Assembly: GCA_025933775.1 (NCBI GenBank)
Contig: JAICZH010000032.1
Coordinates: 1 to 32,785 of the forward strand
DNA length: 32,785 bases
Reading direction: 5' to 3'
Source of the DNA: Chitinophagaceae bacterium
GTDB lineage: Bacteria; Bacteroidota; Bacteroidia; Chitinophagales; Chitinophagaceae
Within the stretch, counting starts at the first letter, position 1; each line of letters begins with the position of its first letter. The translations under genes were made by a program, and so were the position numbers. Of this stretch, positions 31,082-32,785 are shown piece by piece. Below the pieces are notes generated by a model. That model did not search any database, was not told the origin of the DNA, and saw only the letters and a list, made by a program, of their open reading frames with translations.

Positions 31082-31121
31082 ATACTAAATTATTTAGTAT
31101 ATTTACACTAAAAAAAATAGT
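31082..31121 (+). promoter_or_regulatory. Tandem palindromic operator candidate with -7-like box
   Basis: Site 1 is a perfect palindrome with 9-base arms and one central base (31082-31100; core ACTAAATTATTTAGT at 31084-31098). Site 2, ACTAAAAAAAATAGT (31107-31121), shares 11 of 15 positions with that core. Their centres are 23 bases apart, about two helical turns. TATATTTA at 31098-31105 matches 5 of the 6 fixed bases of TAnnTTTG between and overlapping the sites. This is the layout of a repressor-controlled promoter for the gene at 31146. Confidence 0.5.
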
Positions 31122-31145: not shown

Positions 31146-31760
31146 ATGAACACAAAATCATTGATACAGATACCCGGCTATATTTATAATGAATATCTTT
31201 TAGTAATTAGCCCGCATAGAGAATTGTGGAATAAGATAATGAAAATAAAAGAAAAATTTCATGATGATTACAAAGCGCCCAATGCCTTGTGGAATAAGCC
31301 ACACATTACACTTGTAAACTTTATCCAGTTTGAAATGATGGAAGAAAAAATTGTGAATCGCCTACAAACAATTGGTATGGGCTATAAGCCTTTTAAAGTA
31401 GAATTAAAAAATTTTGGAAGCCATCCAAGCCACACGATTTATATAAATATTGAGAGCAAGCAGCAGGTGCAAAATTTAATAAAAGAATTAAAACCTGCGC
31501 AACAATTATTTAAATTAAATAAAGAAAACAAACCGCATTTTATGAATGACCCTCATATAATCATTGCAAGAAAATTATTGCCGTGGCAATATGAAAAAAG
31601 CTGGATGGAATATAGTCATAAACATTTTACCGGCCGTTTTATTGCAGATGAAATGTTATTGATCAAGCGGCGGGTAGGAAATAAGGCTTATCAAATTGTA
31701 CAGCGATTTGAATTTATGAATTTGCCGGTTGCAACAAGCCAGGGCGAATTATTTATTTAA
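31146..31760 (+). CDS. 2H phosphoesterase-like protein (2'-5' RNA ligase family)
   Basis: 204 residues. Family members have two H-x-T/S motifs flanking a central cleft and act on cyclic phosphates or 2'-5' linkages. Here the first is P52-H53-I-T55-L. The second site reads P136-H137-I-I139-I-A-R, where the usual Thr or Ser is Ile139. Otherwise the beta-rich spacing fits. ATG at 31146 follows the tandem palindromes, and the radical SAM gene begins 79 bases downstream. Activity may be altered or lost if the second motif is truly degenerate; family membership is likely. Confidence 0.72.
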   Translation: MNTKSLIQIPGYIYNEYLLVISPHRELWNKIMKIKEKFHDDYKAPNALWNKPHITLVNFIQFEMMEEKIVNRLQTIGMGYKPFKVELKNFGSHPSHTIYINIESKQQVQNLIKELKPAQQLFKLNKENKPHFMNDPHIIIARKLLPWQYEKSWMEYSHKHFTGRFIADEMLLIKRRVGNKAYQIVQRFEFMNLPVATSQGELFI

Positions 31761-31839: not shown

Positions 31840-32785
31840 ATGCAAAACCAATTACAGCAAGATCATTTTAAAGTGGCGGCACAACAAAAAGAAGAAAACG
31901 ATCAGTATTTAACTGGCCGCGGTGCACAATTCAATACAAAAAATAAATTCTTAAAAGACCAGCAAACAAAAGAACATGTTGAAGGAATTGATGATTGGGA
32001 AATAGCAAATGTTGGAACACAATATTTAGAACAACAGGTAAAAAGTATTGTAAATAAAGTAGAAAGCCCAGACCTGAGCATGATGTACAGCATGAACCCC
32101 TATGCAGGCTGCGAGCATGGATGCATTTATTGCTATGCCCGAAACGTGCATGAATACTGGGGTTACAGCGCAGGACTTGATTTTGAAAGAAAGATTATTG
32201 TAAAAATGAATGCACCCGAAATGCTTCGTAAATTTCTGATGAATAAAAAATGGGAACCCACACCCATTATGCTGAGTGGCAACACAGATTGCTATCAACC
32301 GGCAGAACAAAAGTATCGTTTAACAAGAGGGCTTCTCGAAGTGTGCAATGAATTTAATCAACCTGTTGGTATTCTTACTAAAAATTCGTGGATCATAAAA
32401 GATAAAGATATACTGCAGGAAATGGCAAAAAAAAATTTGGTGACGGCAATGGTTTCTATTACCTCATTCAATGAAGATCTGCGAAGAATAATGGAGCCGA
32501 GAACAACAACAGCTAAGCAAAGATTGAAAGTAATTGAAGAGTTAAGCAATGCCGGAATACGCATGGGCATTATGATGGGCCCGATGATACCGGGATTGAA
32601 CGAACATGAAATGCAACGAATAATGAAAGCGGCAAAAGATGCCGGAGCAAAATTTACTGCTTACACTTTTATTCGTTTGAATGGCGCCATACAATTTTTA
32701 TTTCGCGATTGGTTATACAAAAATTTTCCTGACAGGGCAGATAAAGTATGGCATTTAATCGGCAGCAGCCATGATGGTAAAGTAA
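31840..32785 (+). CDS. PA0069-family radical SAM protein, 3' end cut by window
   Basis: 315 codons are seen before the window edge. The radical SAM cluster motif is C91-E-H-G-C95-I-Y-C98, within the N-P-Y-x-G-C-x-H-G-C-x-Y-C-Y-A-R signature of the PA0069 and spore-photoproduct-lyase-like (SplB) group. The protein should bind a 4Fe-4S cluster and cleave S-adenosylmethionine. The function of PA0069-type proteins is not settled. A first ~60-residue basic, Gln-rich segment precedes the core. The start is the ATG at 31840. The last residues are missing from the window. Confidence 0.85.
   Translation, partial: MQNQLQQDHFKVAAQQKEENDQYLTGRGAQFNTKNKFLKDQQTKEHVEGIDDWEIANVGTQYLEQQVKSIVNKVESPDLSMMYSMNPYAGCEHGCIYCYARNVHEYWGYSAGLDFERKIIVKMNAPEMLRKFLMNKKWEPTPIMLSGNTDCYQPAEQKYRLTRGLLEVCNEFNQPVGILTKNSWIIKDKDILQEMAKKNLVTAMVSITSFNEDLRRIMEPRTTTAKQRLKVIEELSNAGIRMGIMMGPMIPGLNEHEMQRIMKAAKDAGAKFTAYTFIRLNGAIQFLFRDWLYKNFPDRADKVWHLIGSSHDGKV

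Follow-up and report, generated by a model that had tools for sequence, protein, structure and literature searches.

A probable non-canonical LexA operator before an operon of a 2H-fold protein and a PA0069-family radical SAM protein with clamp-type C-terminal tails in Chitinophagaceae

In Bacteroidetes, CTAA-N5-TTAG is the operator of a non-canonical LexA, as indicated by EMSA and mutagenesis on the P. actiniarum regulator in the sections of PMC8565304 considered here. The regulon outlined in those sections has this operator motif, an XRE-S24 repressor with its own boxes, recA and umuDC as members, and several boxes per promoter; it includes an SplB-type radical SAM gene (COG1533), and in Chitinophagaceae such regulons are large. 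In the parts of PMC3765255 considered here, SplB-like radical SAM, ImuB-C and SRAP genes are placed in SOS-linked contexts, and non-catalytic accessory domains are proposed. Proteins that bind the sliding clamp have the consensus QL[S/D]LF, e.g. QLNLF in UmuC and QLGLF in Pol II, and in Pol II and Pol IV the motif lies at or beside the C-terminus (PMC3716654, in the sections considered).

The locus described here lies at the end of a contig of 32,785 nucleotides from a Chitinophagaceae bacterium (GCA_025933775.1); this whole stretch is referred to as the window, and its features are listed in Table 1. The locus resembles the regulon of PMC8565304 in all of the respects named above, and it resembles the contexts of PMC3765255 in that radical SAM genes are linked to SOS repair genes. 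Its operator is a further member of the known regulon. Unlike what is described in the sections of PMC8565304 considered, there is a divergent umuDC/2H-radical SAM module with clamp-type tails. These tails resemble the motifs of Pol II and Pol IV in having QxxLF at or beside the C-terminus, and differ from the clamp proteins in the sections of PMC3716654 considered in that the motif is carried by a 2H-fold and a radical SAM protein, whose binding is predicted. Overall, the best reading, which we consider very probable, is a non-canonical LexA operator before an SOS operon of two accessory factors for lesion bypass or repair, both docked on the clamp.

Table 1. Coordinates of the operator, the promoter element and the operon within the window
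Feature	Position	Strand	Remarks
Box 1	31082..31100	.	perfect 19-base palindrome; core CTAA-N5-TTAG at 31085-31097 is the non-canonical LexA operator motif
-7-like promoter element TATATTTA	31098..31105	+	directly 3' of the box 1 core, 5' of box 2
Box 2	31107..31121	.	ACTAAAAAAAATAGT; CTAA-N5-aTAG at 31108-31120, 7/8 positions of CTAA-N5-TTAG
2H-fold (2'-5' RNA ligase/LigT-like) protein, 204 aa	31146..31760	+	Pfam PF13563, E 8e-14; YjcG fold; His53 (HIT), His137 (HII)
QGELF codons (residues 199-203), clamp-binding-type C-terminal pentapeptide	31740..31754	+	tail pLDDT <50
PA0069-family radical SAM protein, cut by contig end	31840..32785	+	NF033668, 419 bits against a cut-off of 360

Two boxes at one promoter and their copies in the genome

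The sequence bears out the initial annotation, which had described a perfect 19-base palindrome and a degenerate relative with centres 23 bases apart. Box 1 is ATACTAAAT-T-ATTTAGTAT, with perfect 9-base arms around a one-base centre, and the centres of the two boxes, 31091 and 31114, are exactly 23 bp apart. The overlap with a -7-like box holds as well, in that TATATTTA starts between the cores of both boxes. This element was called -7-like by what we take to be the Bacteroidota -7 consensus; the -33 region is weak, having TTTT instead of TTTG, presumably the -33 consensus.

As a bare observation, the palindromes are no more than chance. The AT-rich window has one perfect palindrome with 9-base arms and a one-base loop against 0.6 expected, and one CTAA-N5-TTAG against 0.56 expected, with at least one in 44 of 100 shuffles. 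Exact ACTAA-N5-TTAGT occurs at six places in the 3.25 Mb of the own genome, against about three predicted by the composition of 62 kb of sampled sequence; in these searches, the reversed control pattern was more frequent than the box pattern itself. Such counts near chance would suit palindromes that are merely AT-rich sequence, or the site of an unrelated dimeric regulator. Copy number alone was therefore rejected as evidence, and weight was put on position and conservation. Because copies sit at the repressor gene, recA and the window operon, with a near-copy at umuDC, and because the box is conserved upstream of orthologues, the palindromes are judged to be real.

The six exact places precede the XRE-S24 repressor gene, the window operon, recA, an LEA_2 lipoprotein gene (two places), and an m5C methyltransferase-Vsr pair. 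The repressor gene is on contig C50, and its promoter holds a second CTAA-N5-TTAG box 22 bp distant, while umuDC, on contig C155 and separate from the window operon, has its own box, GCTAA-N5-TTAGT, with the core 26 nt 5' of the umuD start. The repressor consists of HTH_3 and Peptidase_S24 domains with Ala101-Gly102, Ser138, and Lys177; together with UmuD, it makes up the two S24 proteins of the genome, and no match to the canonical LexA DNA-binding domain (PF01726, LexA_DNA_bind) was obtained at E 0.001 in this genome, which is 98% complete. An upstream dyad, an XRE/CI-type S24 repressor with its own boxes, the lack of a canonical LexA match, and boxed core SOS genes are thus found together, as is characteristic of a non-canonical LexA operator.

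The hypothesis of an SOS-like operator, raised in the initial annotation, is supported by the boxes at recA, umuDC, and the repressor gene together with the conservation before orthologues, and the genome-wide search proposed there did return other copies, at SOS genes. It was also correct that no repressor gene is visible in the window, since the repressor is encoded on C50 instead. No repressor gene adjoins the window, which is a whole contig ending at 32785 inside the radical SAM gene. The suggestion that a LexA- or XRE-S24-type gene might lie just past this base did not hold: the contig ends there, and S24 genes are on C50 and C155 only.

Several further observations concern the surroundings of the copies. 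On C141 (1397-1411, L032), the exact box core starts 24 nt before the m5C DNA methyltransferase gene, which is followed by vsr, and the box lies where a HindVP-type restriction enzyme gene ends; damage control of this restriction-modification unit is possible. On C97 (28905-28963, L031), two exact boxes 44 bp apart lie before the LEA_2 lipoprotein gene. Since CTAA-N5-TTAG is present within 500 nt upstream in 11 of the 30 LEA_2 homologue loci examined, the own locus included, this may be an occasional SOS gene. The repressor gene on C50 (L028) is followed by ssb, and recA on C185 (L030) by a 171-aa ORF that appears DNA glycosylase-like by eye.

Conservation of the boxes and linkage to umuDC

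A search of 298 genomes of the order for the 2H protein gave matches in 66, and the best locus was examined in 62 of the 66 (G207, G236, G257, and G285 were left out for 2H). These loci were divided into 52 orthologous ones, i.e. 51 main copies and L099, which is a member of the upstream-paralogue clade on the tree, and ten distant homologues that were set aside (L093-L098, L101-L104). The division was made after the architecture had been seen and not by E-value alone, so that G072, which was set aside, outscores G283 and G095, which were kept. The distant homologues are longer ORFs or other families, with neither a box nor a radical SAM neighbour; in L093-L098, the distant 2H domains, which come from other genomes, are part of ORFs with lengths of about 430-470 or 1090-1290 aa and are possible fusions.

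CTAA-N5-TTAG was found upstream of the operon in all 52 orthologous loci (52/62 when the distant homologues are counted). In 48 of the 52, its distance to the first 2H start is at most 250 nt, against 0.33 expected from shuffles; in the remaining four, the box is inside an over-extended ORF call (L052), or the box and the 2H gene are separated by a short ORF or umuD (L080, L081, L087). From the first 2H start onward, there are 5 sites in 138,473 nt. At +23 bp from the 5'-most exact box, the mean match over the 52 loci is 5.75/8, against about 2-3 at most other offsets and up to 4.4/8 at those where the site overlaps itself. A second box with 7-8 of 8 positions stands at +23 bp in 25/52 loci and at 24 bp in 2 more, with at most 2 at any other offset. 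In many relatives, a TTTTG-like sequence precedes box 1 and a TAAATTTA-like sequence lies between the boxes; therefore, it appears that the operator brackets the promoter.

The comparison of orthologous upstream regions, which the initial annotation had proposed, thus finds the palindrome conserved throughout, and the two sites about two helical turns apart turn out to be a recurring arrangement. It is barely conceivable that the palindromes are chance sequence or serve an unrelated regulator, given this conservation, the fixed spacing of the second site in many loci, and a motif common to recA, umuDC, and the S24 repressor gene.

In 47/52 loci, a radical SAM gene with the orientation of the 2H gene lies 3' of it, no more than about 500 nt away. 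Among the five loci without an adjoining radical SAM gene, three have umuD and a radical SAM gene nearby on the other side; in L083 the radical SAM gene is 7 kb off, and in the genome of L099 (G095) no radical SAM match was found anywhere. In 39 of 56 loci (the 52 orthologous ones and four named ones), umuD and the operon are divergently arranged around a box that they share. The box common to umuD and the operon in these loci could also mean that it is historically that of umuDC, acting at a divergent promoter, and that the operon of 2H and radical SAM genes is carried along as a passenger and plays no part in the damage response. However, umuDC of the own genome is on C155 and there is a box at both promoters, the 2H gene of L083 has two boxes with no umuD upstream while its distant radical SAM gene has its own box, and in many loci the box is about 50 nt before the 2H start. 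A mere passenger is therefore very improbable.

Radical SAM genes of the window's family that lack a 2H neighbour have two boxes near the start in five loci of one genus, and others follow dinB- or umuD-like ORFs (by eye); within this family, no box was seen upstream in L107, L121, and L124. Outside the window's family, CTAA-N5-TTAG was absent upstream of the radical SAM gene in 15 of 16 loci, two of which hold little upstream sequence. Therefore, the box is not general for the radical SAM gene.

The two proteins and their C-terminal tails

The nearest named relative found for the window 2H protein is from Ginsengibacter hankyongi (81% identical). A model was predicted from a 7-row alignment, in which one of five models was confident (best pLDDT 85.1, the other four 32-59). 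It aligns with B. subtilis YjcG (2d4g) over 164 residues (Z 19.0, rmsd 2.1), and it also matches LigT and, with Z 13.0, ASCC1 (8tuk). The predicted model thus has the fold of the 2H phosphoesterase superfamily, which is common to YjcG, LigT/ThpR, CPDase, AKAP18, and ASCC1. Of the two HxT/S motifs of the superfamily, the window copy has HIT, with a catalytic-type His, and HII, in which Thr is replaced. It is therefore regarded as a relative by fold of the 2H phosphoesterases, and enzymatic activity is not claimed. Unlike the other 2H-fold proteins, the group of the window protein often loses the catalytic His and combines putative SOS control with a clamp-type tail.

Of the 51 main orthologues, 36 retain the first catalytic-type His and 30 retain the second; both His are present in 25, both full HxT/S motifs in 22, and neither His in 10. 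On a 73-row tree that includes the upstream copies, the state without His corresponds to 10 changes, at least six of them on well-supported branches, with the support being rough as the bootstrap had not settled. Two copies of one genus without either His have a dN/dS of 0.24; therefore, the gene is still constrained. The tail is kept in the copies without His, as QxxLF in 9 of 10 and as QGELY in the other. His96 (PSHTIYI), unlike both classical catalytic His, is invariant in 50/50 aligned copies (L050 was omitted from this alignment, A1, for its over-extended ORF start and is within the counts of 51). Another activity is therefore possible, and some chemistry or binding at His96 may be kept.

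These data bear on a different reading, in which the operator is rightly assigned and the 2H protein is an enzyme (a 2',3'-cyclic phosphodiesterase or an RNA ligase) acting in the repair of RNA or nucleotide ends that arise from damage, and the tails serve a role other than clamp binding. The good fold match to YjcG and LigT, the invariant His96, and the presence of both His in the window copy and in about half of the main copies are in its favour, and judging from its residues the window protein may itself be an active phosphoesterase. The full motifs are nevertheless found in fewer than half of the copies, both His have been lost repeatedly, and the tail persists where they are gone. We therefore regard this reading as unlikely, and prefer two clamp-docked accessories.

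A tandem upstream 2H paralogue is present in the operon in 21 loci (L039, L045, L047, L049-L051, L053, L057-L060, and others). These paralogues are without the clamp-type tail and often without the catalytic His. They were rejected as candidate clamp proteins: of 22 rows (the 21 upstream copies and the single copy L099), two contain QxxLF, one of them close to the N-terminus and the other 10 residues from the end.

The radical SAM protein exceeds the NF033668 cut-off although truncated, and its CxxxCxxC motif reads CEHGCIYC, in agreement with the PA0069 family. PA0069 proteins are presumably included in COG1533, to which the SplB-type member of the described regulon belongs. A fragment at the end of C148 overlaps 32358-32785 of the window; it encodes a radical SAM protein with 93% identity over 428 nt, and its C-terminus ends in QGKLF. 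The overlap suggests a strain mixture in the assembly, and the fragment is probably a strain variant.

The main 2H orthologues end in QxxLF in 48/51 cases and in a relaxed form in 51/51; of the 50 aligned rows, 48 have Q199, 49 have L202, and 49 have F203. Residues 193-204 have low confidence in the predicted model. The linked radical SAM copies have the same kind of tail in 42/44 (41 QxxLF and one QIKMF), the exceptions being L055, which is shortened, and L081 (SLRLF). The 44 copies are those whose ORF ends inside the locus; L033, L035, and L041 of the 47 linked ones are cut by the locus or contig end. In the order-level family search, 26/30 radical SAM copies have the tail, i.e. 14/14 in the window's family and 12/16 outside it, with L125 and L131 coming from genomes already counted. 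Ends that miss the strict motif are QLKLW, QLSLL, QLEFF, and QLSLDIGG, and a split copy in L138 ends in QLSLGLDF.

Tails of radical SAM proteins from 18 of 36 plasmid records were also inspected. When QxxLL and QxxMF are counted, the tail is present in 10/10 proteobacterial and 4/4 actinobacterial copies; QxxLF in the strict sense is found in 6/10 and 2/4, and the rest are QxxLL or QxxMF. The Gemmatirosa protein ends in QLSLGI, and three Bacillota rows, one of them covered only to an early stop, have no strict motif. As background, a QxxLF end was found in 0 of 269 ORFs of at least 200 aa from the fetched loci, from which both families had been excluded by profile search.

The 2H tail agrees with the clamp consensus in Q, L, and F, and UmuC of the own genome has QSNLF. 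A QxxLF-type motif in an exposed segment is what is found in sliding-clamp binding proteins. It is predicted from these motifs that both operon proteins probably dock on the sliding clamp DnaN through their C-terminal tails; partners other than DnaN are possible for such a short tail.

A proposed SOS module and its meaning

The boxes and their conservation, the repressor gene, the umuDC linkage, the tails, and the loss of catalytic residues are established at the level of sequence. Repressor binding and its cooperativity, induction by damage, clamp binding, and the functions of both proteins are what we infer, and a proposed course of events can be potentially described as follows. In undamaged cells, XRE-S24 repressor dimers would occupy box 1 (5' of the -7 element) and box 2 (3' of it); since the boxes are just upstream and just downstream of this element, the bound dimers would block RNA polymerase at the operon promoter. 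Upon DNA damage, RecA filaments would trigger self-cleavage of the repressor at Ala101-Gly102, and the operon would then be expressed together with umuDC, recA, and the repressor gene. Both operon products would dock on DnaN by their QxxLF tails, next to UmuC, and the docked pair would act at stalled forks beside DNA polymerase V. In this scheme, the radical SAM protein may be the lesion-acting enzyme, and the 2H protein an adaptor or nucleotide-binding partner, for which classical catalysis would be dispensable in many species and retained in some only. We put forward tentatively, as possible rather than probable, that this is a previously unrecognised SOS effector module, in which an often-pseudoenzyme 2H protein and a PA0069 radical SAM protein are recruited to the clamp by QxxLF beside polymerase V, with the radical SAM part reaching Proteobacteria and Actinobacteria.

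In the main text of PMC8565304, phosphoesterase, RNA ligase, and PA0069 are not mentioned, and they may be listed in its supplements. The words 'clamp' and 'phosphoesterase' are absent from the main text of PMC3765255, which differs from the tails and the 2H protein here. A literature search that covered few subscription papers gave no report of a radical SAM clamp-binding motif, and for radical SAM with sliding clamp nothing on the subject, judged by titles and the beginnings of abstracts. The same search gave no paper joining PA0069, radical SAM, and SOS, or Rv2578c and LexA, or RNA ligase, umuC, lexA, and Bacteroidetes, and none on a 2H protein under SOS control or with a clamp-type tail. 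The combination of 2H and radical SAM proteins with clamp-type tails downstream of an SOS operator thus looks unreported.

The locus draws attention to a part of the damage response that has been little studied. For two families whose role is unclear, it provides a common, testable hypothesis, namely that their members dock on DnaN in the course of the SOS response. For the radical SAM family PA0069/Rv2578c, which is found repeatedly in different phyla, it suggests a likely place of action. A 2H protein with a retained clamp-type tail but without its catalytic residues would be an SOS pseudoenzyme of an unusual kind. If the proposal is true, the clamp-tailed radical SAM protein would belong to the damage response more widely, as far as Proteobacteria and Actinobacteria.
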